Positions 32,842 to 54,019 of a stretch of 64,000 nucleotides of DNA are shown in pieces. The stretch lies in assembly GCA_036480375.1 (NCBI GenBank), contig JAZGGI010000018.1, positions 1-64,000 of the forward strand, read 5' to 3'. The number at the start of each line of letters is the position of its first letter. Positions within the stretch are counted from its first letter, which is position 1. The DNA is from Candidatus Zixiibacteriota bacterium. GTDB taxonomy: Bacteria > Zixibacteria > MSB-5A5 > GN15 > JAAZOE01. The position numbers were made by a program, and so were the translations under genes. The notes under the pieces were generated by a model. That model saw nothing but the letters and a program-made list of their open reading frames with translations, made no database searches and was not told where the DNA came from.

Positions 32842-32907
32842 CATACTTAATGAATATGTGAGCAAAAACCGGACCTATTGAAATGTAATAGAAGTGAGAG
32901 ATTGATT

Positions 32908-34170: not shown

Positions 34171-34227
34171 TATAGATATAGAACTGTCAATCACACAAAA
34201 TTGAAGACAATGGAATTGGAGAAAAAC

Positions 34228-34917
34228 ATGATTCGAACCAACGATTTAATGAAGGTCTACCGAACCGAAGAAATTGAAACAACGGCTCTCAATTCAATTA
34301 ACATGGAGATCAAAGAAGGGGAGTTTGTATCCGTCATGGGGCCATCCGGATGCGGTAAGTCAACTCTTCTGAATTTACTGGGGCTGCTCGATAATCCCTC
34401 GGGTGGTGAATACTATTTTCTCGACGAAAAGGTGTCTCATTACAGCGAACGACAGCGGGCCGGACTTAGAAAAGAAAACATCGGCTTTGTGTTTCAAAGT
34501 TTTAATCTTATCGATGAATTAACGGTTTTCGAAAATGTGGAACTGCCTCTTCTCTACCTGGGCGTCCCTTCATCTGAACGCAAAAAGAAAGTCGAGGAAA
34601 CTCTCGAACATATGGAAATAATCGCTCGCAAGAAGCATTTCCCTCAGCAACTATCGGGCGGTCAACAACAGCGCGTAGCCGTCGGCCGAGCTGTTGTGGC
34701 CAAACCAAAAATGATATTGGCGGACGAGCCTACCGGTAATCTTGATTCCGCACACGGCGATGAAGTCATGGGTCTTTTATCCGAACTCAATTCCAATGGC
34801 ACAACCATAGTCATGGTAACTCACTCCCCGGCCTATGCTGAGTATGGAAATCGCATAATTCACCTTTTTGACGGTCAGATCGTGACGGAGAACGTTCAGG
34901 AAAAATTCCACGTTTAA
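34228..34917 (+). CDS. MacB/LolD-type ABC ATPase
   Basis: A 229-residue ATPase. Walker A is GPSGCGKST (about 39-47), followed by the Q-loop FVFQSFNLIDELT that is typical of LolD/MacB/FtsE, signature LSGGQQQRVAVGRA, Walker B MILADEPTGNLDS and switch VTHSPAYAEYG. All catalytic elements are intact, unlike the second ATPase of the operon at 47716. The frame extends to a TTG at 34201, but GGAG six bases before the ATG at 34228 decides the start. It should energise the tandem FtsX-like permeases downstream. Confidence 0.9.
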   Translation: MIRTNDLMKVYRTEEIETTALNSINMEIKEGEFVSVMGPSGCGKSTLLNLLGLLDNPSGGEYYFLDEKVSHYSERQRAGLRKENIGFVFQSFNLIDELTVFENVELPLLYLGVPSSERKKKVEETLEHMEIIARKKHFPQQLSGGQQQRVAVGRAVVAKPKMILADEPTGNLDSAHGDEVMGLLSELNSNGTTIVMVTHSPAYAEYGNRIIHLFDGQIVTENVQEKFHV

Positions 34918-35281
34918 CCGTCATAAATTACGGCCATTAATTTACAGAAGTCAGGCACAGGAATATTGGGCGAAAATATGTTTGTTTTCTATCGTCTTTT
35001 AAGAATAGCTCCTTACATAATAGGTACGGTAGGTCTATTATGGGGAACTATAAGATTGCTGTTTTAATTTCGCGCCTATTGAATCAAAATGAGCGACGGA
35101 AAAACCGAATGAGCAGAACTTATCCTATTAACGCCGTCAAAACTCTTCTCGAATTTTTTTATTTACCTGATTACGTAATATGTGGGATCAATACTTATGG
35201 TATTATAGTTTTCCAGGTTATACATCCAAATAAATGTCCCCTGTTCTGTAATCGCAACCACCTATACGCGGGAGTGATTTT
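34918..35281 (+). other. 364-bp gap with a possible 29-residue peptide
   Basis: This is the only long spacer in the first part of the operon. It contains a short frame at 34978-35067 encoding a hydrophobic peptide (MFVFYRLLRIAPYIIGTVGLL and eight further residues) without a clear ribosome site. It also has a longer frame from 35040 that runs 19 bases into the next permease gene and has no family resemblance. I regard neither as established. The region may be untranslated leader or the remains of a deleted gene. Confidence 0.3.
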
Positions 35282-37684
35282 ATGTTTAAAAATTACCTGA
35301 AAGTAGCCTTTAGAAATCTTTTGCGTCATAAAGGATTTTCGTTCATTAATATTATGGGCTTGGCCCTGGGTTTTGCCTGCTGTGTCTTTATTTTTCTCTA
35401 CATCAATCATGAAACCAGCTATGATTCATACCATCCCGATAATGATCGCATATTCCGCGTAGCCAAACATATCAAACGTGACGCCAATGAACAATCGTTT
35501 GCCTGGGTCAATATGTTGGTCGCTCCGACGCTAAAGGAAACTTACCCGGAAGTTTTGCACGCCGGCCGTGGGCACAGGCAACGACCTACCAAAGTTAGCT
35601 TTGAAGATAAGTTCTTTATGGAGGAAAATATTCAGCATATAGAACCTGATTTATTGAATATTCTCAAGATTGATTTTATTGACGGTAATCCGAAACAGGC
35701 GCTGGAACGACCAAATACCGCGATAATAACTGATTGTTTTGCCGCTCGGTATTTTGGCGATGAAAACCCGGTGGGAAAAAGTCTGCTGGTTGATACTTTG
35801 AGTTATGAGATAACCGGACTCATAAAGAATGCGCCTTCAAATACTCATTTCAAATATGAATTTCTGGGTTCCTGGGAAACAATTCAAAGTGGTGGATTTT
35901 TTAGAATGGGCAATGAGCTCATTAGAATGGCATGGGATATGCCCGGAAATGCGATCACGTACATAAAACTGGCCCCGGGGACCGATGTAGCTGATTTTGA
36001 GAATAAGATATGTGGCTTGATTCATCAATATAATGATGCCGGGCTTAAGGAACGAGGGCAGACGGTTGCTTTATTTCTTCAGCCGATAACAGATATCCAT
36101 CTGCATTCAAATATGACCTGGGAAAAAGACCCACCCGGCAATCTCCTATATGTCTATATATTTTCGGCGGTAGGAATTTTGATTCTATTTATCGCGGCGA
36201 CTAATTTTGTAAATCTTTCAACGGCTCGTTCTACCAATCGCTCGACTGAAGTAGGAATGCGTAAAATAATCGGCGCTAATCGCGCGCAATTAGTAGGGCA
36301 ATTTTTGGGGGAATCCCTGCTTGTAACCATTTTGGGTCTCATTATTGGATTAGTTTTCGCCGAAATCGCGCTTCAAAAATTCAATGAAATCTCAGGCATG
36401 TCATTTACCGGCGCCTCGTTTTTTCATAAGGACACAATCCTGTTTATCATCGGTATCGTTGGATTTATCGGGATTGCCGCCGGATGTTATCCGGCATTCG
36501 TACTTTCTTCGCTAAAACCCCTCAGCATAGTAAAGGGCAAATTAAAATCCGGACTCGGAGGAGTCTGGATGCGCCGAATCTCAGTTGTATTTCAATTCGC
36601 GATTGCGGTATTCCTGATAGCAGGGACACTTTTTGTTTTCGATCAAGTGAATTTCATGAAGAACCAGCATCTCGGCTTTGATAAAGAGCAAAAATTAATA
36701 ATTGAGATGCCGACCGATGTCGTTACACGAGATAGCTACTCCGGGGTTAAAAGTGAATTCTTAAATCATCCTTCGATTGAGGGCGCTACCTTCTCTTCCA
36801 GTGTTCCCGGACGGTGGAGATACTTATGGAATACTTATCCCGCCGGCAAGCAGGAGACCAACTCACATTCGATTAATCACATGCAGGTCGATTATGATTT
36901 TTTATCTGAATACGATATTCAATTGTTAACCGGTAGAGCCTTCAGCAAGGAACATGGCGACGCCTTTGGAGCCTGGATTATAAACGAAGCGGCAGCCAAG
37001 ACTTTTGGCTGGGGAACCGCCGAAAACGCCCTGGATAAACATCTATTTGAAGAAAATCATTCCATTGTAGGAATTATTAAAGATTATCATTTTCATGGTT
37101 TGCAGGAAGCGATTGGACCATTGGCTCTCTTTCCCATAGGCGATGATTTTCGCTATTTAAGCCTCAGAGTGGAAACTAACGAACTCTCGGAAACGGTTGC
37201 CAATATTAAAACAACCTATGAAGAACTTTTCCCCGGAACTATTTTTAATTATTTCTTTCTTGATAAGGAATTTAATCTTCAATATCGCAGGGAAGAGCAA
37301 ATCGGTAGTTTATTTGGCTGGTTTACATCCCTCGGCATATTCATAGCTTGTCTGGGATTATTCGGATTATCATCATTTCTGACAGAACAACGAACCAAAG
37401 AAATCGGTATTCGCAAAGTCCTGGGAGCTTCAATAAGCGGTATTGTACGCCTTATGACCAAAGAATACATCTGGTTAGTGATAATTTCCAATGTGATAGC
37501 GATGCCGATTGCATGGTATGCGATGAATCGATGGCTCGATAATTTTGCTTATCGAATTGAGATTGGATGGGAAACAATGGCGTATGCGGGAATCAGCGCC
37601 ATAATTATTGCTGTTGCGACTGTCAGCTTTCAAGCAATTAAAGCGGCTCTGGCCAACCCGGTTGAATCGATTAAATATGAGTAG
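35282..37684 (+). CDS. FtsX/MacB-like ABC permease, copy 1
   Basis: An 800-residue permease of the large Bacteroidetes-type architecture. TM1 is at about 20-43 (FINIMGLALGFACCVFIFLYI). A first periplasmic MacB-type domain runs from about 48 to 280. Three helices at 285-410 carry the FtsX motif STEVGMRKIIGANRAQLVGQFLGESLL. TM5 is near 432, a second periplasmic domain runs from about 455 to 670, and the last three helices carry TKEIGIRKVLGASISGIVRLMTKE. The C-terminus reads NPVESIKYE. It should work with the intact ATPase and the adaptor encoded upstream to move lipids, lipoproteins, peptides or drugs across or out of the inner membrane. The substrate is unknown. Confidence 0.88.
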   Translation: MFKNYLKVAFRNLLRHKGFSFINIMGLALGFACCVFIFLYINHETSYDSYHPDNDRIFRVAKHIKRDANEQSFAWVNMLVAPTLKETYPEVLHAGRGHRQRPTKVSFEDKFFMEENIQHIEPDLLNILKIDFIDGNPKQALERPNTAIITDCFAARYFGDENPVGKSLLVDTLSYEITGLIKNAPSNTHFKYEFLGSWETIQSGGFFRMGNELIRMAWDMPGNAITYIKLAPGTDVADFENKICGLIHQYNDAGLKERGQTVALFLQPITDIHLHSNMTWEKDPPGNLLYVYIFSAVGILILFIAATNFVNLSTARSTNRSTEVGMRKIIGANRAQLVGQFLGESLLVTILGLIIGLVFAEIALQKFNEISGMSFTGASFFHKDTILFIIGIVGFIGIAAGCYPAFVLSSLKPLSIVKGKLKSGLGGVWMRRISVVFQFAIAVFLIAGTLFVFDQVNFMKNQHLGFDKEQKLIIEMPTDVVTRDSYSGVKSEFLNHPSIEGATFSSSVPGRWRYLWNTYPAGKQETNSHSINHMQVDYDFLSEYDIQLLTGRAFSKEHGDAFGAWIINEAAAKTFGWGTAENALDKHLFEENHSIVGIIKDYHFHGLQEAIGPLALFPIGDDFRYLSLRVETNELSETVANIKTTYEELFPGTIFNYFFLDKEFNLQYRREEQIGSLFGWFTSLGIFIACLGLFGLSSFLTEQRTKEIGIRKVLGASISGIVRLMTKEYIWLVIISNVIAMPIAWYAMNRWLDNFAYRIEIGWETMAYAGISAIIIAVATVSFQAIKAALANPVESIKYE

Positions 37685-37699
37685 AGAGGAGAATATTGG

Positions 37700-40078
37700 A
37701 TGTTTAAGAATTATCTGAAAGTCGCAGTGAGAAATATCAAAAACAACAAATTGTTCAACATGATCAATATCCTTGGTTTGGTAATTGGGCTTGGTGTATG
37801 CCTGATAATAATCGGAATCGTCAACAACGAACTTGGATTTGAAGATTGTCACCTTAATAAAGACCAAATTTACCGTGTAGATGGCAGATATTTGTACAGA
37901 GGTTCCCGAATATCGATGGCCAGTATAGTTCCTGCTGTCGGCCCGGCAATCAGAGAATCTATTCCGGAAATTGAACGCCTGGCTCGGATTCGCCGGGAAT
38001 GGGACATAACCTTTGAATTTACTAACGACAAAACCCATCTTGCCCCAAAAGTCTTTGTTGCCGAACCGGACTATCTCAATATCTTTACATTGCCCCTTGA
38101 TGATGGGAATCCTGAAAATGCGCTCATCGCGCCCTTCTCAGTTATTATTTCGCAGGATATTGCGGCAACATATTTTGATAATCAAAGCCCACTAGGAAAA
38201 ACTGTTAAATTAGTGAAAGAAAACGATGCAGTCGATTTACAGGTTACCGGAGTTTTTGCGAAAATTCCGGCCAATACTCAAATGCGCTGCGATTTCGTCA
38301 TTTCATATTCAACCTTAGAAAAAATCGGTGAAGATGTCAGTTCCTGGACAGAGCTTTTTAAGGATTATACATATGTTTTATTGAATATGGATGCGGACCC
38401 AGCCTTAGTTGAAAGTAAAATTCCCGAAGTAATTGCTCAACAGATAGGAGAGGATCAGGCAAAATCGTTTGATCTTCAATTGCAGCCGCTTGAGGATATT
38501 TATTTTAATTCCGATTTAAGCTATGAATTGCCGCCTCAGGGGAATTTGATGCTGGTAAATATATTTTCCGGCGTAGCCGCGATAATAATGATTATTGCCT
38601 GCATAAATTTCCTAAACATATCCTCAGCTCGAATTTCATTTCGCCTTAAAGAAGTCGGCATTCGAAAAGTTCTCGGAGCCCTCCGCGGCCAGCTCTTCAA
38701 GCAGTTTCTGATCGAATCGATGTTCGTAACTGTTATTTCTATGATGGGCGGTTTGATAATATTTGAATTAATTCGCCCGCATATAGAATCTTTTATGGGA
38801 CGAACGTTGGAAATTAATATGTATCAGGATCCAATCTTACTCTCTTCGGTTTTTGCAATGATTCTATTAGTAGGATTATTATTCGGAAGTTATCCGGCTT
38901 TCCTGTTTTCTCGGTTCCAGCCGGTTACAATTCTAAAAAACAGCTTTTCGAATCAGTCTTCTAAATCCGGGTTTCGACGAATTATGGTTGTAACGCAATT
39001 TGTTCTGGCCGTTATCATGATATTCTGCACTATCGGCGTCTATAAACAAATTCAGTTTTCCTTAAATTCAGATCTTGGCTTTGATAAGGATAATATTTTG
39101 CTAATTGATATAGAGGATAATTTATCGCTTGATAAATGCAAGGTGCTAAAAGATGAAATTTTAAATAACGATTTGGCTTTATCTGCCACTATTGTTGATA
39201 TGGTTCCGGGCGAAAATCGCCACTTCTTATATGGAGTTCGCCCCGAAAACAAGGCGGATGAAGACCCGGCTATTATACACGGTATTCAGATAGACGCTGA
39301 TTATCTGAAAACTTTTAACATCGAAATTCTAGAAGGACGAGAGTTTTCCTCCGAAACCACGCCGGGTTCAATTCTGATTAATGAAACTGCCGTAAAGGAA
39401 TTTGAAATAAAAAATCCTATCGGTTTTAAATTCTTAAGGAGCGAATCCGAATTTACAGTGATAGGTGTGGTAAAAGATTTTCATCAATTTTCGGTTCATA
39501 CTCCAATCGCATCAACAGCCTTCATCCCGATCTCTCATGAGCAACGGCTGTTGGCCGTAAAACTTGAATCTGATAATATAGCTCGAACCACTGAGGAAAT
39601 AAAAACTATATGGGGCGGCATTGCGCCGGACATATCATTTGATTATCAATTCCTTGATGAATCCATGCATGAAAACTATGAAACCGAGGAGAAAACCGGC
39701 AAACTGTTTACTGCATTTACCTTGCTTGCTGTTTTTGTGTCATGCCTTGGATTGTTTGGTTTGGCATCATTTACGGCCGAAAGGCGCACTAAAGAGATTG
39801 GCATAAGGAAAGTACTCGGAGCATCTATCACCAGCATTACGGGATTAATCACCAAAGAGTTCTTCTTACTCGTTGCCATTTCTAATGTTATCGCATGGCC
39901 CATTGCGTATTATGCTATGAATCGCTGGCTGGAAAATTTCGCCTATCGAATAGATATTGGCTGGACTGTCTTTGCCCTTTCGGGTATCGCAGCGTTATTA
40001 ATTGCCTTATTAACGGTTGGCTTTCAGGCAATTAAGGCCGCCACCAACAACCCGGTTGATGCGATTAAGTATGAGTAG
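37700..40078 (+). CDS. FtsX/MacB-like ABC permease, copy 2
   Basis: A 792-residue paralogue with the same eight-helix, two-domain layout. The first FtsX motif reads LKEVGIRKVLGALRGQLFKQFLIESMF and the second TKEIGIRKVLGASITSITGLITKE; the C-terminus is NPVDAIKYE. The N-terminal 15 residues are almost identical to those of copy 4, but similarity drops sharply after them (KNNKLFNMINILGLVIGLGVCL). The 15-bp spacer to copy 1 carries AGAGAGGAGAAT as ribosome site. It is probably translated with its neighbours and may heterodimerise with them. Confidence 0.88.
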   Translation: MFKNYLKVAVRNIKNNKLFNMINILGLVIGLGVCLIIIGIVNNELGFEDCHLNKDQIYRVDGRYLYRGSRISMASIVPAVGPAIRESIPEIERLARIRREWDITFEFTNDKTHLAPKVFVAEPDYLNIFTLPLDDGNPENALIAPFSVIISQDIAATYFDNQSPLGKTVKLVKENDAVDLQVTGVFAKIPANTQMRCDFVISYSTLEKIGEDVSSWTELFKDYTYVLLNMDADPALVESKIPEVIAQQIGEDQAKSFDLQLQPLEDIYFNSDLSYELPPQGNLMLVNIFSGVAAIIMIIACINFLNISSARISFRLKEVGIRKVLGALRGQLFKQFLIESMFVTVISMMGGLIIFELIRPHIESFMGRTLEINMYQDPILLSSVFAMILLVGLLFGSYPAFLFSRFQPVTILKNSFSNQSSKSGFRRIMVVTQFVLAVIMIFCTIGVYKQIQFSLNSDLGFDKDNILLIDIEDNLSLDKCKVLKDEILNNDLALSATIVDMVPGENRHFLYGVRPENKADEDPAIIHGIQIDADYLKTFNIEILEGREFSSETTPGSILINETAVKEFEIKNPIGFKFLRSESEFTVIGVVKDFHQFSVHTPIASTAFIPISHEQRLLAVKLESDNIARTTEEIKTIWGGIAPDISFDYQFLDESMHENYETEEKTGKLFTAFTLLAVFVSCLGLFGLASFTAERRTKEIGIRKVLGASITSITGLITKEFFLLVAISNVIAWPIAYYAMNRWLENFAYRIDIGWTVFALSGIAALLIALLTVGFQAIKAATNNPVDAIKYE

Positions 40079-40089
40079 GAGGCTATACA

Positions 40090-42495
40090 ATGTTGAGAAA
40101 TTACTTGACGACGACATTTAGGCAAATAACAAGATTTAAGGGTTATTCCGTAATTAATATCGCGGGACTGGCCTTAGGTATTGCAAGTTGCTTAATTATT
40201 ATGTTATGGGTACAAAATGAACTGAGTTACGATCGCTACCATGAAAAGGCGAACAATATTTATCGCATCGGAATTGATGCGGATATGGCCGGAAACAATA
40301 TACGACTTCCTGTTAGTAATTACCCTTCATCCCCCGCTCTGCAACTAGATTTCCCTGAAATTATTAATGCTGTGCGTTTGAAATCATATTCAAATGTCCT
40401 CATATCCAACAATGATGTTAGGTATGAAGAAGATCGCCTGTTCTACGCAGATAACGAAATTTTTGAAATTTTCAGATTACAAATGGTGGAGGGCGATCCC
40501 TCAAACGCGCTTGCCGCATCACTTACCGCAGTCATTACAGAAGATGCGGCCCAAAAATATTTTGGCGATGAAAACCCGCTTAGACAAACTTTAACTGTAG
40601 ATAATCACGACAAATTTACCGTCACAGGAGTTATAAAAAATATACCTAATAATTCTCACTTGAAATTCGACGTGTTATTATCAATGAAAACATTGGAAAA
40701 TAAATTTGGAGAAAATATCAATCACTGGATAAACTTTAATTATATCACCTATCTTTTGCTCGCTGATAAGGCAGATTATAAATCGCTGGAAGAAAAATTC
40801 CCTGGTTTTGTGGATAGGCATATGGGCGAAATATTAAAGTCGTTTGGTGCACGGGTAGATTTATTTTTGCAGCCTCTAACCGAAATTCACTTGTACTCAA
40901 AATTACAGGGCGAGCTTGAGCCGGCAGGAAAAATTGAATATGTATATCTATTTTCTGCCGTCGCACTGTTTATATTAATCATTGCATGTATTAATTTCAT
41001 TAACCTAACAACAGCACGATCCCAAAAGCGGGCCCGAGAAGTTGGAATGCGAAAAACTCTCGGAGCGTCCAGGTACAAACTAATCCTGCAATTTCTGGGA
41101 GAATCAATCGGCTTGTGCGCACTTTCAGCATTTTTGGCGATATTTCTTACTGAATTGGCCTTGCCGACTATAAACTCAATTTCAGGCAACCAACTGCAAC
41201 TATCTTATTTTAGCTCGTTTTGGTCGCCATTGATTTTTGCAGGCTTTATACTAATTGTCGGGATGTTGGCCGGATTATATCCGGCGCTATATCTTTCATC
41301 ATTTCGTCCCGTACATATTTTGAAATCCGGCAAATCGGGCACCGGATCACATGCCGGATTTAGGAACGCTTTTGTTATCATACAATTTGTAATCTGCATT
41401 GCTCTTTTAATAAGTACAATAACGATTTATTCTCAACTTGATTTTATGAGAAACAAATCTCTTGGGTTTGATAAAGAACAGGTTGTTGTATTATCAGTTC
41501 CATCAGAACGCTTATCACAATCATTGCCTTCTATAAAAAGTGAACTCTTGGCAATTTCGGGAGTAAAGGGTGTTACCGCAACATCGAATACGCCAGGAGA
41601 TGGGTATTCTGTAGGAGTTTGTGTACCGGAAGGATATACTCTCGAAAACGCTCGAATGATGAATCTAATCAATGTTGATTATGACTTTCTCACAGTGTTT
41701 GATATGCAGTTGGTAGCCGGAAGAAATTTCTCTGCCGAAATGCCCACTGATTCTATTCGAGGAGTGATAATTAATGAAGCTGCTGCGGCTGATCTTGGTT
41801 GGGAAAACCCTGTTGGAAGAACATTTAAAACTGATGGCACCGGTCCCGGTACCGATGATTGGATTGAAAAGGAAATAATTGGAGTAGTTGAGGATTTTCA
41901 TCAGGTTTCGCTTCATCAACCAATCGTCCCAATTTTTATGTCTTACAAGTCCGAATATTTTAATTCTATATGTATCAAGATTTCGGGAGATAATATCATC
42001 GGCACGGTGGATAAGTTGAAGAATAAGTGGGAACAACTTTTCCCCGAAAGAATTTTTGAATATTCATTCCTAAACGATAAATTTGACTCTCAGTACAAAA
42101 ACGAGGAACGGTTAACCAATATTTTGATATCTTTTAGTTTCCTGGCGATTTTTATCGGATGCCTCGGCCTAATAGGACTGACATCGTTTATAACCGAACA
42201 AAGAACGAAAGAAATCGGTATAAGAAAGGTTTTGGGAGCAAGCGTATCTAACATAATTCGACTGCTGACTCGCGAATTTATTTTTCCGGTTATAATGGCA
42301 AACGTATTTGCCTGGCCTATTGCATGGTATGCAATGAATCGCTGGCTCGAAAATTTTGCCTATAGAACGGAAATGAACTGGCTGACATTTATAATCTGCG
42401 GAATATGCGCCATTGGCGTGGCTATTCTGACGGTCAGCTATCAGTCTGTTAAAGCTGCGACCTCAAACCCGGTTGATGCAATTAAATATGAGTAG
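40090..42495 (+). CDS. FtsX/MacB-like ABC permease, copy 3
   Basis: An 801-residue paralogue that starts MLRNYLTTTFRQITRFKGYSVINIAGLALG, so its N-terminus is the most divergent of the first four copies. FtsX motifs are AREVGMRKTLGASRYKLILQFLGES and TKEIGIRKVLGASVSNIIRLLTRE, and the C-terminus is NPVDAIKYE. The second periplasmic domain contains VDYDFLTVFDMQLVAGRNFS, a block repeated in all five permeases. It follows copy 2 by 11 bp. The eight membrane segments are in the expected places and there are no frameshifts. Confidence 0.88.
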   Translation: MLRNYLTTTFRQITRFKGYSVINIAGLALGIASCLIIMLWVQNELSYDRYHEKANNIYRIGIDADMAGNNIRLPVSNYPSSPALQLDFPEIINAVRLKSYSNVLISNNDVRYEEDRLFYADNEIFEIFRLQMVEGDPSNALAASLTAVITEDAAQKYFGDENPLRQTLTVDNHDKFTVTGVIKNIPNNSHLKFDVLLSMKTLENKFGENINHWINFNYITYLLLADKADYKSLEEKFPGFVDRHMGEILKSFGARVDLFLQPLTEIHLYSKLQGELEPAGKIEYVYLFSAVALFILIIACINFINLTTARSQKRAREVGMRKTLGASRYKLILQFLGESIGLCALSAFLAIFLTELALPTINSISGNQLQLSYFSSFWSPLIFAGFILIVGMLAGLYPALYLSSFRPVHILKSGKSGTGSHAGFRNAFVIIQFVICIALLISTITIYSQLDFMRNKSLGFDKEQVVVLSVPSERLSQSLPSIKSELLAISGVKGVTATSNTPGDGYSVGVCVPEGYTLENARMMNLINVDYDFLTVFDMQLVAGRNFSAEMPTDSIRGVIINEAAAADLGWENPVGRTFKTDGTGPGTDDWIEKEIIGVVEDFHQVSLHQPIVPIFMSYKSEYFNSICIKISGDNIIGTVDKLKNKWEQLFPERIFEYSFLNDKFDSQYKNEERLTNILISFSFLAIFIGCLGLIGLTSFITEQRTKEIGIRKVLGASVSNIIRLLTREFIFPVIMANVFAWPIAWYAMNRWLENFAYRTEMNWLTFIICGICAIGVAILTVSYQSVKAATSNPVDAIKYE

Positions 42496-42510: not shown

Positions 42511-44895
42511 ATGTTTAAGAATTATTTGAAAGTCGCGGTGAGAAATATCCTTCGTCATAAAGGATATTCACTCATCAATATCCTGGGTTTTGCCGCAGGG
42601 TTAACGACCTGCATTCTGATCGCCCTCTACATTAGTTTTGAATTTGGTTATGATACTTATCACGAAGATAATGAGCGAATTTATCGCGTTATAGCCAATA
42701 CCAAATATGGCGAAGAACTTCATTCATGGGCAGCAACACCCGAACCACTTGGTCCGACTATTCAAGAATACTATTCTAATAATTTAGATGTCGCCAGAAT
42801 TCAAGAACTCGGGCGCGTACGAATTAAAAAAGGTGAAGAATCCCTTTATGAATATTACTGTCTTGCAGCTGGCCCAAAGATATTTGACATTTTGAGCATT
42901 CCCTTTATTGCCGGAAACCCAAATAATGCGCTTGAACAGCCTCAAACGGCAGTAATCACCAAAAGTATCGCCGAGAAGTATTTTTCGAATTATCAAGTAG
43001 TTGGCGAAGTAATCACAATAAACGATCAGGATTATAGGATATCAGGAGTAATCGCTGATTACCCTGAAAATACCCATCTGAAATACAATTTTCTTCTGTC
43101 TTTTAGCACTTTCGAACCAAATGAAAACATGCAAAATTGGGGAAGAATGTCAACATATACATATCTTAAGCTTTCGCCAGATGCCAATGCAAATAGGTTA
43201 ACCGAAGACATAAATCGAACAATAGGCGCCCACGCAACAGAAATACTGGCAAAGCATGATAAAATAATGTCTTTTGCCCTGCAGCCTATAATCGATATCC
43301 ATCTTCATTCAGATCTATGGGGTGAAATATCCCCTCCGGGGAGTCTGCCTAATATCATTGTATTCTCAATCATTGGCTTTATTATTCTTACAACAGCATG
43401 TATAAACTACGTTAATCTAACCACCGCTCGATTTATAAACAGGCATAAAGAAGTTGGCATGCGAAAAACAATTGGCGCCAGCCGATACCAATTGATAATT
43501 CAATTTTTGGGCGAGAGCGTATTAATGACATTGCTTTCGTTGGCGCTGGCCTATATACTCGTTGAATTGCTTTCCCCATTATTAAGTAGCATTCTAAACA
43601 TTAAATTTTCTACAATCAATCTAACGGAACCGATAATGCTTCTTTCAATCATTGGATTTGCTCTAATGGTTGGCCTAATCGCGGGATGTTATCCGGCCTT
43701 TATTTTTTCAGCTTTCAAACCTGTGACTTTTTTCAGGGGAGTATTTTCATCAAATTATCGCCATGTAACTTTACGTAAACTTCTCGTTATTTTCCAATTT
43801 GTCGCTTCAATCGTATTGATAATAAGTCTTTTAACTGTGTCCAAACAGATATATCATATGAAAAATCAACCTTTGGGATTTGATAATAGTCATAAACTTG
43901 TTCTTCCTCTGGCCAGGGATATATCGATAGCGGATAATTATGAAACAATAAAGAATGAATTTACCAGGTATCCAGGAATCACCGGGGCCACAGTCTCTTC
44001 AAGCATCCCTGGCCGTATCAATTATATTCATGCATTTAAGGCGGCTGATATTGCAAATAGTGAATACAAACCATTCTATCATTTCTTTTTCGATGGTGAT
44101 TTCATCTCTGAATACGGTATTCAATTGGCCGATGGTAGATCATTCCAAAAGGAAATGCCGTCAGATTTGCAGGGTGCGATTATAATTAATGAAACGGCAG
44201 TGAGAGCATTTGGCTGGTCATCAGCATCGGAAGCAATTGGAAAATCTGTTGATTTTGGCGAAGATCGGCTTAATGTTATCGGCGTAACAAATGATTTTCA
44301 TTTCCATGGACTTCAACGTCCAATAGAACCTATAGTAATGCAGATGTATCCGGGAAAATTCCATAGTATTAGCCTTTCTCTACAAACTAACAACACCGAA
44401 GAAGTAATCGCAGATATCAAGAAAACTTTTCTGAAGCTTTTCCCAAACACTCCCTTTAGATACTATTTCGCAAAAGAGGATTTTGAGAAAAATTACGGCG
44501 CTGAGGAAAAAATGGGCGCCATTGCGGGCGGCTTTACCGGCTTAGCTATTATATTAACCTGCCTGGGTCTGCTTGGATTAACATCCTTTTCTATTGAAAG
44601 CCGAAGCAAAGAAATTAGTATTCGCAAAGTTTTTGGGGCATCAATCAATGCCATTATTCGATTGGTGACCAGGGAATTCATTATTCTGGTGGCAATGGCC
44701 AACATCATTGCCTGGCCGATTGCTTATCTGGCCATGAGCCGTTGGCTTGAAAATTTCGCTTATCGAACAGAAATCACATGGACAGTATTTACCATTTCCG
44801 GAATTGCCGCCCTAATTTTCGCTATCCTTACCGTTAGTTTCCAGGCCATAAAGGCCGCCACGGCCAACCCGGTCGACGCGATCAAGCATGAGTAA
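42511..44895 (+). CDS. FtsX/MacB-like ABC permease, copy 4
   Basis: A 794-residue paralogue. The N-terminus MFKNYLKVAVRNILRHKGYSLINILG is close to copies 1 and 2. FtsX motifs are HKEVGMRKTIGASRYQLIIQFLGES and SKEISIRKVFGASINAIIRLVTRE, and the C-terminus is NPVDAIKHE. In the second motif GIRK has become SIRK. A 69-bp stretch that spans the ribosome site and first codons is nearly identical to the same junction before copy 2, which points to duplication or gene conversion. It is followed by the small unknown gene at 44922, not by another permease. Confidence 0.88.
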   Translation: MFKNYLKVAVRNILRHKGYSLINILGFAAGLTTCILIALYISFEFGYDTYHEDNERIYRVIANTKYGEELHSWAATPEPLGPTIQEYYSNNLDVARIQELGRVRIKKGEESLYEYYCLAAGPKIFDILSIPFIAGNPNNALEQPQTAVITKSIAEKYFSNYQVVGEVITINDQDYRISGVIADYPENTHLKYNFLLSFSTFEPNENMQNWGRMSTYTYLKLSPDANANRLTEDINRTIGAHATEILAKHDKIMSFALQPIIDIHLHSDLWGEISPPGSLPNIIVFSIIGFIILTTACINYVNLTTARFINRHKEVGMRKTIGASRYQLIIQFLGESVLMTLLSLALAYILVELLSPLLSSILNIKFSTINLTEPIMLLSIIGFALMVGLIAGCYPAFIFSAFKPVTFFRGVFSSNYRHVTLRKLLVIFQFVASIVLIISLLTVSKQIYHMKNQPLGFDNSHKLVLPLARDISIADNYETIKNEFTRYPGITGATVSSSIPGRINYIHAFKAADIANSEYKPFYHFFFDGDFISEYGIQLADGRSFQKEMPSDLQGAIIINETAVRAFGWSSASEAIGKSVDFGEDRLNVIGVTNDFHFHGLQRPIEPIVMQMYPGKFHSISLSLQTNNTEEVIADIKKTFLKLFPNTPFRYYFAKEDFEKNYGAEEKMGAIAGGFTGLAIILTCLGLLGLTSFSIESRSKEISIRKVFGASINAIIRLVTREFIILVAMANIIAWPIAYLAMSRWLENFAYRTEITWTVFTISGIAALIFAILTVSFQAIKAATANPVDAIKHE

Positions 44896-44921: not shown

Positions 44922-45194
44922 ATGAAAGAAGTCGTTATTCAAATTCCGACTCTCGACGCCGAGCAAAATATCGAAATCGATGTCAAGATCAATGGGCGAA
45001 AAAGAACGATTAAGTACTGCGTCGAGATTATAGAATGGGAAAGTGGCCACGGCAATGAAGATAAGATTGATGTCCTGAGAAGAGTTATAAAAGAGCATGA
45101 TAAGAACTGGGAGTTAATCCAAATCGGCATCCCGACTAAGGACGGCATCCCGGTTATGTTCAGAAAGAAATCGGAGAGAAAAACGGTTGAATAA
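44922..45194 (+). CDS. Small conserved-looking protein of unknown function
   Basis: A 90-residue soluble protein, highly charged, with no signal peptide and no membrane segment. It begins MKEVVIQIPTLDAEQNIEIDVKI, continues with an alternation of beta strands (TIKYCVEIIEWESG) and one helix (KIDVLRRVIKEHDKNWELIQIG), and ends in the basic tail KKSERKTVE. AAGGTGAGG eight bases upstream is a strong ribosome site, so I accept it as a real gene. I do not recognise the family. It interrupts the permease array, where the tail of a lost permease copy also lies. It may be an accessory or regulatory subunit, or cargo from the recombination that removed that copy. Confidence 0.7.
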   Translation: MKEVVIQIPTLDAEQNIEIDVKINGRKRTIKYCVEIIEWESGHGNEDKIDVLRRVIKEHDKNWELIQIGIPTKDGIPVMFRKKSERKTVE

Positions 45195-45212
45195 GGCATC
45201 CAATTATTCATT

Positions 45213-45272
45213 ATGCGATGGAAAAGACCTCTAACAAACGCCAACTCGGTCGATGCGATTACTTATGAGTAA
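45213..45272 (+). pseudogene. Fossil C-terminus of an additional FtsX-like permease
   Basis: In frame up to the stop at 45270-45272, the DNA reads KRPLTNANSVDAITYE, closely matching the shared permease tail (K-A-A-x-A/S-N-P-V-D-A-I-K-Y-E). As at the other permease junctions, the stop is followed 14 bases later by GGAGG and the ATG of the next permease. No other permease sequence remains upstream. This is best read as the relic of a sixth copy lost by deletion, not as a 19-residue gene. Confidence 0.7.
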
Positions 45273-45286
45273 CATTGGAGGTGCCC

Positions 45287-47665
45287 ATGTTTTCTTCTCA
45301 TATTAAGCCTATATTGCGCTCATTATTCGGGCATAAGGGATATGCGGCAATAAACATAATCGGGTTGTCAGTGGGATTGGCATGCTCTCTGATTATTATG
45401 CTTTTTGTAATGGACGAATTAAGTTTTGACGCCTGCCATAAAAAAGCCGACCGAATATATCGAGTCTTAACATTTAACGAAGGTTTTGAGGCTCGAACGC
45501 CGGAGACTTCTTTTCTTCTGGCCCCGACCCTCAAAGATAATTTTCCCGAAATCGAATACACCGCTCGCATTCGATTTGTATCCTGCCGCATTAAAAACAA
45601 TGAAGGCTGGCAAAGAGGCAGACGCTTTTACGCCGCTGACCCGGAGATATTTAATATCTTTACAATTCCCCTCGTGAGGGGAAATCAAGACCAAGCCCTG
45701 GCGGCCCGCTTTTCAGTTATCCTGTCCGAGAATATGGTTCAGCGACATTTTCCCGACTCTGATCCCATCGGTCAAAACCTGCTAATTAACTGCCGCGGCG
45801 AAGAAATAAATTTGACAGTCACCGGAGTCATGGAAAATTTGCCCCGCAAATCTTCGTTTAAGGCAGACTTTATCTCGTCTCTTAACATCGGACAAATTTA
45901 TTTACAGAGACTTTTTAAGAGCTATAATCTCTCGCTGGATGATTCCTGGGATCAAAAACACTATCGCACATACTTATTGCTTTCCGAAAACGCTAAGGCA
46001 GATATATTATCGAAAGATATCCCAATTCGGCTGAAACAGTATAATGAAAAAGCCGAAACTGACGCACAAATACTTCAAGCCCTGCCTGATTTCTATCTGA
46101 ACTCCTCCCACATTGTCAACCACCACATGGCCTCGGGAAATCTCCAAAACATCTATATTTTTTCCGCGGTTGCCTTTTTAATACTCATCCTGGCCGGGGC
46201 AAATTATGGCATCTTATCGATGGCACGATCACTCATACGAACCAAAGAATATGGGGTTCGAAAAATTATTGGTGCGAGTTCTGCAATGATCGTCCGGCAA
46301 ATAATCGGTGAATCACTTTTAACAACTATTAGCGCTCTACCCATAGCAATTGTTTTGATCGAAATCTTTCTTCCATTTGTCAATCGATTGTTTGTGACCC
46401 AACTGGAAAGTAACTTTTATTCCAATTGGTCATTCTGGATCGGGACATTATTAATTATTATTTTCATTGGGGTCGCTTCCAGTATTTACCAAGCCTTTGT
46501 CATTTCAAAATTCAATCCTATAGCGATCTTTAACAAAAACGCTATGCTAGGTTCTGGAAAATCTATTTTTCGTAGAATTATAGTCACAGCCCAACTCGTA
46601 ATTTTTGTGTCCTTAACGGCAAGTTCCCTTGTCATTTATAAACAAATAGATCATTCGATAAGTGGAGAAGTTGGTTTTGACCGCCAAAATGTGCTGGCGA
46701 CATCTATTAGTCGCGATATTCGAGGAAAATATGAAACAATAAAAAATGAATTGGGTAACATCCCCGGCGTTATTGGAGTCTCCGGAACCAGTATCCTGCC
46801 TCCCAATGATGGTTATGCTATAATGCCCTTTCCCACAGCATTGGATTCTACTGTCACCAAGACGGTCGAAGGCATCTCGATTGATTATGATTTCTTTTCA
46901 ACGCTGGGTCTGACGATATTGGAGGGCAGAGATTTTTCCCCCGATATGGATGCTCCGGGAACTAATTCCGTTATTCTCAATGAAACCGCGGTAAAAGAAC
47001 TGGGAGTTGAAAATCCAGTCGGAAAAATCCTGGGTGGTTATAAAATCATCGGTGTTGTAAAAGATTTTCATCAGCATTCGTTTCGAATGGAAATCAAGCC
47101 GATGGTGTTTGATCTTAATCCACAATATATTTCCGATATCCTGGTGCGCGTAAACCCGGAAAATGCAACCGAAACCGTCGCGGCAATAAATAAGAGCTGG
47201 AGTGAATTGTATTCTTCTGCATCCAGTGATTTTCATTATCTGGCCGAATATTTTGAAAGTACTTATCACGAAGAAAGAAATTTCTCTCAGATAATATTGT
47301 ACTTTACGCTTCTGGCCATCGGAATCGCCTCCCTGGGGCTTTTGGGACTATCCTCTTTCATGGGAGAACGCAGGTCGAAGGAAATTGGGATCAGAAAAGT
47401 ATTTGGGGCTTCAATACCGAATATTGTCGTTTTGTTGATAAAGGAGTTTGTACTTTTGGTGATTTTGGCCAGTATTATTTCCTGGCCCATAATTCACTAT
47501 GTAATGTCTCACTGGCTGGAGAATTTTGTCTATCGGATAGACATTGGCGTTCAACCGGTGTTAATTGGCCTTGTTCTTGGACTGATAATAACCTGTATTG
47601 CCGCGGGTTACCATTCTCTTAAGGCCGCCCTGTCTAACCCGGTTGATGCGATAAAGTATGAGTAG
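45287..47665 (+). CDS. FtsX/MacB-like ABC permease, copy 5
   Basis: A 792-residue paralogue and the most divergent: MFSSHIKPILRSLFGHKGYAAINIIGLSVGLACSLIIML. FtsX motifs are TKEYGVRKIIGASSAMIVRQIIGES and SKEIGIRKVFGASIPNIVVLLIKE, and the C-terminus is NPVDAIKYE. GGAGG six bases before the ATG at 45287 decides the start over a TTG at 45275. It is separated from copies 1-4 by the small gene and the fossil tail, and is followed 50 bp later by the second ATPase. It may therefore form its own transporter with that ATPase. Confidence 0.88.
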   Translation: MFSSHIKPILRSLFGHKGYAAINIIGLSVGLACSLIIMLFVMDELSFDACHKKADRIYRVLTFNEGFEARTPETSFLLAPTLKDNFPEIEYTARIRFVSCRIKNNEGWQRGRRFYAADPEIFNIFTIPLVRGNQDQALAARFSVILSENMVQRHFPDSDPIGQNLLINCRGEEINLTVTGVMENLPRKSSFKADFISSLNIGQIYLQRLFKSYNLSLDDSWDQKHYRTYLLLSENAKADILSKDIPIRLKQYNEKAETDAQILQALPDFYLNSSHIVNHHMASGNLQNIYIFSAVAFLILILAGANYGILSMARSLIRTKEYGVRKIIGASSAMIVRQIIGESLLTTISALPIAIVLIEIFLPFVNRLFVTQLESNFYSNWSFWIGTLLIIIFIGVASSIYQAFVISKFNPIAIFNKNAMLGSGKSIFRRIIVTAQLVIFVSLTASSLVIYKQIDHSISGEVGFDRQNVLATSISRDIRGKYETIKNELGNIPGVIGVSGTSILPPNDGYAIMPFPTALDSTVTKTVEGISIDYDFFSTLGLTILEGRDFSPDMDAPGTNSVILNETAVKELGVENPVGKILGGYKIIGVVKDFHQHSFRMEIKPMVFDLNPQYISDILVRVNPENATETVAAINKSWSELYSSASSDFHYLAEYFESTYHEERNFSQIILYFTLLAIGIASLGLLGLSSFMGERRSKEIGIRKVFGASIPNIVVLLIKEFVLLVILASIISWPIIHYVMSHWLENFVYRIDIGVQPVLIGLVLGLIITCIAAGYHSLKAALSNPVDAIKYE

Positions 47666-47715: not shown

Positions 47716-48396
47716 TTGATTAGATTGAACAACATCGAAAAACGATACAAAACGGGGAAAGATTTCACTTATGTCCTGCGTCAAATTTCTTTTGATGTCA
47801 AAGAAGGCGAATTTGTCTCTATCATGGGCCCGTCGGGAGCCGGCAAATCAACGCTGTTGCATATTATCGGAATGCTTGACGATATGTCCGGAGGCGAGTA
47901 TCATTTTTTCGACGCATCGGTCCATGAACTCAAAGAGAAGAAACGTTCCACCCTCTACAAAGAATACATTGGATTTATTTTCCAGAGTTATCATTTGATT
48001 GATGAATTGACCGTTTATGAAAATCTGGAAACGCCGTTATTGTATAAGAAAGTCAAAGGCAAAGACCGCAAGGGCATGGTTTGTGATATACTCGACCGAT
48101 TCAATATCGTGGGTAAAAAAGATCTCTTCCCCAGTCAATTATCGGGCGGCCATCAGCAAATGGTCGGAATCGCCCGCGCCCTTATCACCAATCCTCGACT
48201 GCTTCTGGCCGACGAACCGACCGGTAATTTACATTCCAAGCATGGCGAAGAAATAATGGACTGGTTTACGCGCCTGAATAAAGAAGAGGGGGTAACTATT
48301 ATCCAGGTAACTCATTCGGAAAAAAACGCCGCCTACGGCGATCGAATTATCACACTGCAGGACGGCTGGATAGAATCGGATACTGCCAAAACATAA
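47716..48396 (+). CDS. MacB/LolD-type ABC ATPase with altered motifs (TTG start)
   Basis: A 226-residue ATPase. Walker A GPSGAGKST and the Q-loop FIFQSYHLIDELT are intact, and Walker B reads LLLADEPTG. Two catalytic neighbourhoods differ from the ATPase at 34228: the signature is LSGGHQQMVGIARA instead of LSGGQQQRVAVGRA, and the D-loop is NLHSKHG instead of NLDSAHG. The switch His is present (VTHSEKNAAYG). Such changes are common in ATPases with weak hydrolysis or in asymmetric pairs, so it may heterodimerise with the intact copy. The start is TTG, with GGAGAG seven bases upstream. It is the last gene of the operon. Confidence 0.85.
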   Translation: MIRLNNIEKRYKTGKDFTYVLRQISFDVKEGEFVSIMGPSGAGKSTLLHIIGMLDDMSGGEYHFFDASVHELKEKKRSTLYKEYIGFIFQSYHLIDELTVYENLETPLLYKKVKGKDRKGMVCDILDRFNIVGKKDLFPSQLSGGHQQMVGIARALITNPRLLLADEPTGNLHSKHGEEIMDWFTRLNKEEGVTIIQVTHSEKNAAYGDRIITLQDGWIESDTAKT

Positions 48397-49077: not shown

Positions 49078-51879
49078 TTACCGGTATCCAAAGATAACCG
49101 CGTAAATTATCAGCAAAATCAGGGTTATTCCGGTGAAAAGGGCCACGCTTCCAAATACCTTCGCGGCTTTTACCAATACCGGCGGTAACGGCTGGGTTAA
49201 TCTTTTCTTGAATTTACGTGACCCCAAAAGCTCCCGATACTCCCGAGGCCGCTCCAACCGCAGTTCTTCGACGGTCATACGTCCGGTAAAGATAACCGTA
49301 TCCATCGGGAATTTATCCGGACGGAAATGAGTATTAAAGAAGTGAATCGTAAAGATAAACGCCGTTGCCAGGAGAGCCTCGTCGGAATGAATAATCGTCG
49401 CGACATTGATAATCCAGCCCGGCAAAAAGAGCGTGAAGAATTCCGGGAACCACAAAATAAGTCCGGTTGAACCGATAATTGCCACGCCCCAGAAAACGGC
49501 AAAATAGTCGAATTTTTCCCAGTACGTCCAACGGCCATAATCGGGTCGGGGACCCTTACCAAGGAACCATTTAAACGTCGCGATTAAATCCTTAAGATCA
49601 TCTTTATTCGGTATCATCGAGTTGGAGCTGAAAAGAGTTTCTTTCCATGATTTTCCGCTTTTGACTTTTCCGCGGATAAAGTCAAAAATATGAATTCCAA
49701 AATAGGTGAAAGTAATAATGGCACATAAGCGATGTATAACGCTGGTGGCGTCAAAACCACCCAAAACATTCGATAACCATTGCGCCCATCCCAGGTAAGA
49801 GAACTTAAGCACCATACCGGTGACCGCCAATCCCAGAAAACTGACGATAACCATGATGTGCAGAACGCTATGCAGTCTCTTGAACCGCCGGTAATGAAGT
49901 CGGCCGCGTGCCCGAGCCATCATCTCCTTATGCTCTTTCATCGCCTTGATTGACCGGGGTAACCACATCAACGTATGAGTTCCAGCCAGCATCAACGTTC
50001 CGACCAGTAAAAACGTCATAACCCAAAAGGTATAGAATAAAATCGGATACTTATCCCGGTCATGGTGGGTAGCATGAGTGAGATATCCGGCAAAATTCCG
50101 ATGCGAACCTTCATGGCACTGGCCGCACGTTTCCACTATATTTTGTCGAGATAATCGGGATTCGGTATTGACCGGCGGGAGAATATCATGCGAGCCGTGA
50201 CAATCGTGGCAGCGGGCCGCCGCATCATAACCGAGACGCGATACCTTCCCATGATGGGTATCGAAATATGTTTCTGTTACTTCAGCGTGACAGTTTCCGC
50301 ATTGGCCGATTATCTGGTGCATAAATCCTTCGGAATCGGTACGAGAAATGCTGTGCGATTGATGACATTGACTGCAGTTGGGTAGAGGTTTATCGGTATC
50401 ATTGGCGCTGGGTGAATGAATACTATTAACGAATCGCTCATAAATCCCCTTATGGCATTTGGCGCAAGTCTGCGCGACGTTATCATGATGAACGCTTGAC
50501 CGCGGATCATCCTTGGGTAATTCAAAATGATTGGTATGGCAATCGGTGCACATGGCCGTCACGACCAAACCGCTCTCCAATAGTCCCTTACCGTGGATAC
50601 TCATTGTATAGCTGTCAGCCATACTCGGTTCACCGCGTTGCTCGCGCCGTACCGCAGCCGAACCTCCCCGGACATGACACTGACCGCATAACTGTGGAAT
50701 TTTGGTCGGAAAGGTGGGTGATTCGGGATTCTGATACTTTTTAATGGTATGTTTTCCATGGCAATCCACGCAAGACGGTGCTGCCTGATCGCCCCTCTCG
50801 GCCAGGGTACCATGGATGCTCATACTATAAATGGTAACCGCTTCACTATGGCAGATAGAACAGTCAACTTTAGTTACTACTGTTTCGCATGATCGCTTCA
50901 AATTCGGGCTGACACCTGTATGGCATTGAGCGCATCGGGTTGAGCGATGAGCGGAGTTATGAACTTCATCCGAATCCACAAATAATGAAATCTCCTCGCC
51001 GTCACGAATAATCTTGAGGTCCGGATTTGAGTGACATTCCATACATTCCGCACTCGACACTTCACCATAAAACACTTTCCTGATTTCATGAGGCTGATGG
51101 CAATCGACACATACGGGAACTTTGTTTGGTTCCTTTACCCACAACTCGCCCTGAATAAATTTTTTATGTACCAGCTCAATACGACCGTGGCATTGCAGGC
51201 ACGTTTTTACAATTCTATCGCGATGAATGGAAGATCGAGGATCAGTATGGGGTAAAACACTATGGGCCGTATGACAATCGGAACAAACCGCCGTAACGGT
51301 TAACCCCTGCTGTAAAAGGCCTATTCCGTGAATTGACAGTGAATAATGCGACAGGATGCTGTCTTGTGGAATATCATAGGTCTGCGTGACCTCGGTGCCT
51401 TCTTTATGACATCGACCGCACATAAAAGGAATATTAAATATATCCACTTGTGAGCCGGGAACCGAGGCGGGAATAACATAATGGGCGCTATGGCAGTCCT
51501 GACATTGCGGGCCCAGTTTGCGGCCGGCCGCAGCCATCTGACCATGAAGACTCTGGCCATAAATCTCGGCTATATCATCATGGCACTCGCCGCAATTAAC
51601 CTTTTCAAGATTTTCGTCATGGGGGAAATCATCAAAACCGTCAAGATCGGAATGGCAACCAACGCATTCCAGATCGGCGTGTATTGAATTCGTAAATCTA
51701 TCAGTATCAATAAAGAGAGAAACTTCGCTTCCGTCGCGATCCTTAGTTAAATCAGGATCATCATGGCACACCATACAATCATCGATTGATTGCGCATTGA
51801 TGATATTCTGATTCCAGCTAAGAGACATTATCAAAGCAACCGCTATGGCTAGGCTCCGTTTAAGTCCAAAAAGAGTCAT
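49078..51879 (-). CDS. Cytochrome b / multiheme cytochrome c fusion, 19 CXXCH motifs (CbcL-like)
   Basis: About 933 residues. A signal peptide (LKRSLAIAVALIMSLSW) leads into a periplasmic domain of about 580 residues with 19 CXXCH heme c sites, counted directly, and many spaced His residues that can act as distal ligands. The C-terminal 310 residues have about six membrane helices with His residues in the pattern of formate dehydrogenase gamma/cytochrome b561 (RLHSVLHIMVIVSF, SVIHRLCAIITFTYFGIHIFDF). The plan matches CbcL-type quinol dehydrogenases of metal reducers: membrane quinol is oxidised by b hemes and electrons pass to periplasmic c hemes. A TTG at 51927 also opens the frame; I prefer the ATG at 51879, which starts a normal signal peptide. 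Confidence 0.88.
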   Translation of the reverse strand: MTLFGLKRSLAIAVALIMSLSWNQNIINAQSIDDCMVCHDDPDLTKDRDGSEVSLFIDTDRFTNSIHADLECVGCHSDLDGFDDFPHDENLEKVNCGECHDDIAEIYGQSLHGQMAAAGRKLGPQCQDCHSAHYVIPASVPGSQVDIFNIPFMCGRCHKEGTEVTQTYDIPQDSILSHYSLSIHGIGLLQQGLTVTAVCSDCHTAHSVLPHTDPRSSIHRDRIVKTCLQCHGRIELVHKKFIQGELWVKEPNKVPVCVDCHQPHEIRKVFYGEVSSAECMECHSNPDLKIIRDGEEISLFVDSDEVHNSAHRSTRCAQCHTGVSPNLKRSCETVVTKVDCSICHSEAVTIYSMSIHGTLAERGDQAAPSCVDCHGKHTIKKYQNPESPTFPTKIPQLCGQCHVRGGSAAVRREQRGEPSMADSYTMSIHGKGLLESGLVVTAMCTDCHTNHFELPKDDPRSSVHHDNVAQTCAKCHKGIYERFVNSIHSPSANDTDKPLPNCSQCHQSHSISRTDSEGFMHQIIGQCGNCHAEVTETYFDTHHGKVSRLGYDAAARCHDCHGSHDILPPVNTESRLSRQNIVETCGQCHEGSHRNFAGYLTHATHHDRDKYPILFYTFWVMTFLLVGTLMLAGTHTLMWLPRSIKAMKEHKEMMARARGRLHYRRFKRLHSVLHIMVIVSFLGLAVTGMVLKFSYLGWAQWLSNVLGGFDATSVIHRLCAIITFTYFGIHIFDFIRGKVKSGKSWKETLFSSNSMIPNKDDLKDLIATFKWFLGKGPRPDYGRWTYWEKFDYFAVFWGVAIIGSTGLILWFPEFFTLFLPGWIINVATIIHSDEALLATAFIFTIHFFNTHFRPDKFPMDTVIFTGRMTVEELRLERPREYRELLGSRKFKKRLTQPLPPVLVKAAKVFGSVALFTGITLILLIIYAVIFGYR

Positions 51880-51997
51880 TCCCCATTGGCCTTTCAATTC
51901 TCGCCTGTTTTTTCCGCGTTTAATCAAATCGCGGCATCCCTTTTAATCAAAAAAGAAAATTCCATTACACTCTCCAATACCACTTCAGAGAAGTCCC

Positions 51998-53944
51998 TTA
52001 CTTTTCAATATCCTTATCGCCCGGATGTTCATGGCGATACACATCCTCCGGCATCTTTCCGGTAAGCCACGCCGGATTCATCGGATACACTGCCGGATTG
52101 AAGATCGTTGAATACAGATGCCACACGATTATGGCAAGCATCGCCAGCCAAGCCTCATAATAGTGTAGAACGAGCATTACATCAAGAAATCCTTTGGGAA
52201 ACAACTGAACGGCAAAATTGTCAAACCAAAGGAAAAGCCCGCTGATAATCATCACAAAGGTCCCCCAAACCAGGGCCCAGTATTCAGCCTTTTCCATATA
52301 GCTAAAGCGATTGTAGGCAGGTTTGTGTTTCTTTATGCCGAGATTATAATAAACCGTCGCGAACCCTTCTCGGACATCGCTCATCCGGGGCCAAATATCC
52401 CGGAGGAACTGTCTACCCCGAGAGGTAGTTAGATAAATCAAATGCCAGATCACGGTAATTATAAAAATAACCGCTGCCGTCCTGTGAATGATGCCGCGTA
52501 GGGGAAAACCGCCTTCCCAGCCAAATAACCACTCAACCCAAAACGCTTCCGAGTAACGTAAAGCAAAACCAGTAACTACCAGGACGATAAAACTGGCCAT
52601 CAGAAAAGTATGTTGCCAGACTTCATTCATACTCATGCGTCTGATCTGCTTTCTTTGAAGCATTAGGAAAATCTGCTTGCGGATATCAATCGCCCAGTGA
52701 ATGAGCATGATTCCTATCGTAACAATGATAAGAATTACGTAAATATCCGCGATCAGACTCGCCAAAGGCGTCCGGGACTCACCGGGAGTGGAGTGAATTG
52801 GGGTAGTGGCCATTTCCGCTGAAATACCGGGATGGCAATTACCGCAAGTCTCCTGCAAATTTGCCGAATAAATCGATGAGGTAGAATCCGTATGAGGCAG
52901 AATGCGATGCGCCCCATGACAAGACGAACAATTGGCGACGGTTAGATCGCCCGCTTTACTCTTCAGGCCGTGATAACTATCATACCAGGTGTGCAATCGA
53001 CCGGATGGAATATCATATTTCTCATTAATAAATGCCGATTCATGGCAGGGCGAACAAGTTGATTCGGCTAAGCGGGCTGGACTTACATTTGAAGCCGGGT
53101 CCCGGGGATCGATGATTCCATGTTCTCCGTGACAATTCGTACAGACGGGTGAGTCTGTTTCACCCCGGGCCGCAAGTTGACCGTGAATACCTTCCCAATA
53201 ATCGTATTCGACGTTGCGATGGCATTGGCCGCATGTTTTGGGGATGTTAAAATGATTGATGGGTGAATCGGGGCTTCCCGGTGATAAAATTCGGTGCGAC
53301 GATCCGCCCGCCGAATGGCAATCATTGCAGGTTGCCGCCAGATACACTCCTCGTGAAGTTGCCTTGCCGTGGACGCTGCTTCTATACATTCCAATGGCTT
53401 TTCCAGCAACCAGATCATGTTTTTTTACCAGATCCAGATTTTCATGGCACTTGCCACACGTTTCCGGAAGATGAAGCGGATTAGTACGAGATTTTTTTTC
53501 AGACGAGGGCAATATGTCATGATTTCCATGGCAGTCTTTGCATTCGGGAATATCATGTTTACCTTCATGTTTTTGACGACCATGCCATTGATAAAGCTCC
53601 GCTTCCTCATCATGACATCCGCCGCAATCGACCATTTCAAGATTTTCATCGTGGGGGAAATCGTCAAAGCCATCGAGATCAGTGTGACATCCAACACATT
53701 CCAAATCAGCATGAATAGAATTTGTGAATTTATTCACCTTAATATAAAGAGAAATTTCGCTTCCGTCGCGATCCTTAGTCAAATCAGGATCATCATGGCA
53801 CGCCATACAATCATCGACTGATTGAGCGTGTCCTGAACCCGCACAAAATATCATAAGGAGTAATGCGACTGCATAAACGAAGAGTTTCATCACACCGTTT
53901 GAGAAACTGTTAATCTCTCTTTTAATAGTATTGATGATTTTCAT
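51998..53944 (-). CDS. Cytochrome b / multiheme cytochrome c fusion, 11 CXXCH motifs (CbcL-like)
   Basis: About 648 residues and a paralogue of the downstream cytochrome. The signal sequence (MKLFVYAVALLLMIFCAGSGHAQS) is followed by 11 CXXCH motifs over about 380 residues. A four-to-five helix cytochrome b domain comes next (EVWQHTFLMASFIVLVVTGFAL, IIHRTAAVIFIITVIWHLIYL, LHYYEAWLAMLAIIVWHLYS). The first 75 mature residues are almost the same as in the 19-heme protein (CHDDPDLTKDRDGSE, LECVGCH, DLDGFDDFPHDEN), so the N-terminal module was duplicated. The stop is 118 bp before the next gene's ATG, so co-transcription is likely. The start could be 53944 or 53890, and the frame is open to 54019. 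Confidence 0.87.
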   Translation of the reverse strand: MKIINTIKREINSFSNGVMKLFVYAVALLLMIFCAGSGHAQSVDDCMACHDDPDLTKDRDGSEISLYIKVNKFTNSIHADLECVGCHTDLDGFDDFPHDENLEMVDCGGCHDEEAELYQWHGRQKHEGKHDIPECKDCHGNHDILPSSEKKSRTNPLHLPETCGKCHENLDLVKKHDLVAGKAIGMYRSSVHGKATSRGVYLAATCNDCHSAGGSSHRILSPGSPDSPINHFNIPKTCGQCHRNVEYDYWEGIHGQLAARGETDSPVCTNCHGEHGIIDPRDPASNVSPARLAESTCSPCHESAFINEKYDIPSGRLHTWYDSYHGLKSKAGDLTVANCSSCHGAHRILPHTDSTSSIYSANLQETCGNCHPGISAEMATTPIHSTPGESRTPLASLIADIYVILIIVTIGIMLIHWAIDIRKQIFLMLQRKQIRRMSMNEVWQHTFLMASFIVLVVTGFALRYSEAFWVEWLFGWEGGFPLRGIIHRTAAVIFIITVIWHLIYLTTSRGRQFLRDIWPRMSDVREGFATVYYNLGIKKHKPAYNRFSYMEKAEYWALVWGTFVMIISGLFLWFDNFAVQLFPKGFLDVMLVLHYYEAWLAMLAIIVWHLYSTIFNPAVYPMNPAWLTGKMPEDVYRHEHPGDKDIEK

Positions 53945-54019
53945 AATGACGATGGCCCCACTTCCTATAATATATATCGGATGAACATAGCTTTTGCCTA
54001 TGCTTCCCGAAACATTCAA

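Follow-up and report, generated by a model that had tools for sequence, protein, structure and literature searches.

The 76 bases that follow a conserved small gene in a tandem array of ABC permease genes are very probably what erosion has left of the 3′ end of another permease gene, of approximately 800 codons, which would have lain between the small gene and the fifth intact permease. The array was found in the window, a 64,000-nucleotide stretch from the start of a contig of a Candidatus Zixiibacteriota bacterium, and all of its genes lie on the forward strand. An HlyD-type adaptor (32878-34170) and an ABC ATPase (34201-34917) form its head, followed by permease copies 1 (35282-37684), 2 (37700-40078), 3 (40090-42495) and 4 (42511-44895), the small gene of 90 residues (44922-45194), permease copy 5 (45287-47665) and a second ABC ATPase (47716-48396) which closes the array. 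The five permeases are intact, of about 800 residues each, and both Pfam PF12704 and PF02687 score above gathering in them, which places them with the MacB/FtsX-type ABC permeases; each, copy 4 included, has a MacB_PCD domain and two FtsX stretches, and each ends in a variant of ANPVDAIKYE. Protein identity among the copies is only about 33-43%.

The genes are tightly packed and the gap between the first ATPase and permease 1 (34918-35281) is, at 365 bp, unusually long for such an array; a scan of this gap for a second relic found no permease start, end or body, no small gene and no ATPase. A sigma-54-type response regulator (31253-32650, reverse strand) is divergent from the array, and similar-ended genes occupy its position in genomes G045 and G002 and in Bacteroidales loci. 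Beyond the array, 49078-54019 on the reverse strand encodes two long proteins that resemble multiheme cytochromes and are rich in CxxCH motifs.

Structure of the relic

The downstream piece of the relic, KRPLTNANSVDAITYE with its TAA stop (45222-45272, stop at 45270-45272), scored 26.6 against the five intact permease tails, on a scale where those tails themselves score 63-68 and the runner-up among the 5,939 stop-preceded 16-mers of the window reaches 17.6. In Markov-random sequence of the same dinucleotide make-up none of 386,694 stops attained 26.6, the maximum being 22.0. The permease-like C-terminal tail recognised in the sequence-only reading is therefore present, but its proposed length of 16 matching codons holds only in part: the last ten (ANSVDAITYE) agree with the consensus ANPVDAIKYE at eight of ten positions with no gap, while the KRPL part finds no match. 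A degenerate tail pattern run across the whole 3.6 Mb genome recovered the relic, and nearly all of the other matches were intact permease ends. The same reading had likened the spacing from the relic stop to the next ATG (45287) to that at other permease junctions, and the 14 bp found here compares well with the 15, 11 and 15 bp between copies 1 and 2, 2 and 3, and 3 and 4, respectively.

It had also been supposed that everything upstream of the tail was gone; however, a second, frame-shifted piece survives. When the 48 bases 5′ of the tail were translated in three frames and set against the C-terminal regions of the permeases, CCAATTATTCATTATGCGATG (PIIHYAM, 45200-45220) was found to correspond to residues 734-740 of copy 5 (PIIHYVM), on a diagonal 59 residues before the C-terminus (motif positions -59 to -53), the counterpart in copies 1-3 being PIA(W/Y)YAM. 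Random 48-mers equalled this score in 2 of 1,500 cases against a five-copy profile and in 0 of 1,500 against copy 5, or about 1 in 1000, for a motif of seven codons whose search was made with the tail already known. At the DNA level 16 of 21 nucleotides are identical to copy 5, a value attained by none of the 50,980 21-mers outside the array. A search of the window for a remnant of a permease start 5′ of the tail found none.

The two pieces are in different frames but collinear, with about 36 codons missing between them and about 730 permease codons missing before the first, which starts only a few bases 3′ of the stop of the small gene. This arrangement points to a gutted permease gene and not to a small coding sequence. 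Above-chance similarity to the permease family is thus combined with loss of the open reading frame by a large deletion and a frameshift, as is the case for pseudogenes. Both pieces are closer to the copies of their own array than to permeases elsewhere in the genome; by nucleotide identity the upstream piece favours copy 5 and the tail favours copies 2 and 4, and at about 60-76 nt the relic is too short to single out a parent copy.

We infer that a whole, functional gene once stood at this site, and the order of events may be envisaged as follows. A large deletion would have removed the region from just past the stop of the small gene as far as codon 734 or so, and a second one, of some 36 codons and accompanied by a frameshift, would have brought PIIHYAM next to the final 12-16 codons; alternatively, a single complex event could have produced both. 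In either course the genes on both sides remained intact and have their own ribosome-binding sites, which suggests that the array, made up of diverged paralogues, could tolerate the loss.

The companion gene and permease decay in related arrays

The small gene had been read as occupying the space vacated by the lost permease. Its distribution contradicts this, as it is, on comparison of sequences and their neighbourhoods, an old, conserved companion of these arrays. Relatives of 61-71% identity were found in metagenome-assembled genomes (MAGs) labelled Zixibacteria, Aminicenantes, Armatimonadetes and Cloacimonadota as well as in G045, and most of them have adaptor, ATPase or permease genes of this type next to them; in Bacteroidales the relatives are about 31-35% identical and lie directly 3′ of the ATPase. 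Apart from the window, the gene was located at L005 (5722-6003), L035 (9791-10066), L004, L006, L007 and L008, and in the Bacteroidales loci L009-L014, and its position within the array varies from one array to another. The protein has a strongly conserved WELIQI core and a predicted alpha/beta fold of moderate confidence (pLDDT 80). It had no family match in Pfam or NCBIfam, its model had no significant match among solved structures, and no such protein was found in phage records.

G045 and G083 are two congeners from the same order as the window. In G083 (L005) an intact permease (6044-8413) lies about 40 bp after the small gene, whilst in G045 the same slot (L035, 9743-9485, reverse strand) retains 20 codons of a permease start, which run out of frame into the final 66 codons. 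The slot behind the small gene is thus intact in one congener and gutted in the other, which provides the nearest equivalent support for a deletion in the window. In the window, in G045 and in the Cloacimonadota MAG alike the small gene is whole and the adjoining permease is gone; in the last of these (L008) a lone permease start of about 16-20 codons, with a ribosome-binding site, remains 5′ of the small gene.

Similar decay is seen elsewhere in these arrays. In G083 the second ATPase is followed by two intact permeases and one gene downstream of them, and the equivalent region of G045 has the first permease (65% identical), a 125-codon remnant and that same downstream gene (66%). This remnant, at the array end (L048, 14325-14702, reverse strand), consists of MLNYF running in frame into some 120 codons of the permease end, and is 66% identical to its orthologue, the second G083 permease, which is intact at 800 residues, the next best match being 54%. 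In G002, which belongs to the window's own family, a start of about 35 codons is fused to an end of about 25 codons (L042, 2824-3007, reverse strand) 5′ of the only permease left intact in the array; on the other side of this permease lies a bare tail of 12 codons and then what appears to be the broken start of the second ATPase (L042, 1-380, reverse strand). The gutted genes of L035, L048 and L042 keep between 5 and 35 start codons and between 25 and 120 end codons. Truncated permease ends were also found in G106, G115, G044 and G078 in a wider survey of arrays; L068 and L080, which had been taken for short-end stubs, are full-length genes with one internal break and were left out of the count. 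The original proposal of a relic left by a deleted permease is therefore well supported, both by the two collinear fragments in different frames and by the same decay in relatives.

Within the one genus, orthologous permeases occur in swapped order, as Z3-Z4 in G083 (L005, L049) and as a Z4-like followed by a Z3-like gene in G045 (L035, L048), which indicates that array members have been reshuffled as well as lost. A search of the relatives for orthologues of copies 4 and 5 gave no clear ones; in the permease tree copy 4 clusters with copy 1 and one of the G045 permeases, and copy 5 forms a long branch with no close orthologue.

Alternative accounts of the junction

There is a small chance that no sixth gene ever existed. 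In that event, recombination at permease 3′ ends would have brought the small gene, by insertion or by a move, to its place between copies 4 and 5, duplicating the end of copy 4 in the process. The small gene does lie at differing places in different arrays, and the relic shares with copy 4 its TAA stop as well as GCCAAC and GGTCGA; however, over the last 39 nt the relic agrees with copy 2 as closely as with copy 4, with 29 of 39 identical in each case. The upstream scrap is nearer to copy 5 (16/21 nt) than to copy 4 (13/21), and an insertion with tail duplication does not account for the intact permease behind the small gene in G083 or for the permease reduced to its start and end in G045. 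This explanation is weakened accordingly, and loss of a sixth permease is preferred.

A different suggestion accepts the deletion but sees more than debris in the stubs: were translation along the array co-ordinated by signals in the ends of these genes, deletions which keep the ends would be favoured. We regard this as very unlikely.

It is a little less likely again that the relic has been kept for a job of its own, either as a short coding stretch (MRWKRPLTNANSVDAITYE) or as a stop placed for the efficient passage of ribosomes to copy 5. An ATG at 45214 opens a frame of 19 codons and the stop stands as far from the next start as at the intact junctions; however, this ATG has no ribosome-binding site, and copy 5 carries its own (GGAGG) just 5′ of its ATG. 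Conservation of the segment as an independent short gene in relatives, which had been named at the outset as the finding that would speak against a relic, was not seen: with up to three mismatches allowed, the 30-nt tail is absent from all other genomes among the 132 of the phylum that were scanned. In addition, the small gene of G083 is followed by no segment of this kind, and G078 has a similar bare tail that is neither part of an array nor immediately 5′ of a permease start. The junction matched no RNA family, and a scan of it for promoters, terminators and RNA families gave nothing clearly above chance.

The match is a short one, but a chance resemblance or an assembly fault is hardly credible given that no random stop scored as high, that a second, collinear piece is present and that array copies so dissimilar in protein sequence make the collapse of repeats during assembly unlikely.

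Known systems and turnover of the array

The array bears a resemblance to two previously defined groups of duplicated ABC permeases, ADOP (TIGR03434) and the DarB-like proteins (NF038008) with their DarC/DarD-like adaptor and ATPase. In these, too, the permeases are of about 800 residues with MacB_PCD and FtsX domains, and are adjoined by an HlyD-type adaptor and MacB/LolD-like ATPases; the array described here differs in having five copies nearly in a row and a conserved 90-residue companion. It falls below the NCBIfam cut-offs of both groups: copies 1, 4 and 5 score 283, 270 and 234 bits where ADOP demands 622.3, and for the darobactin exporter DarB/DarC/DarD the values are 89-163 against 700 for DarB and 241 against 450 for DarC. 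A literature search of partial coverage gave no paper specifically on arrays of this kind in the phylum.

Birth-and-death turnover in tandem gene arrays is a familiar process. The pseudogene remnants which it leaves resemble the present case in that intact paralogues stand beside gutted copies whose orthologues in sister species are whole, and in that an internal deletion leaves one or both ends behind. There is no essential difference between them, other than that the genes here are MacB/FtsX-type permeases in arrays of a little-studied phylum. The relic is real and is well explained by the usual turnover of genes in a repeated cluster, and the small companion, conserved across several phyla, is more worthy of attention than the relic itself. 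The permease arrays gain and lose copies and the remnants record their past members, such that the array of the window is best annotated as five permeases and one dead copy.
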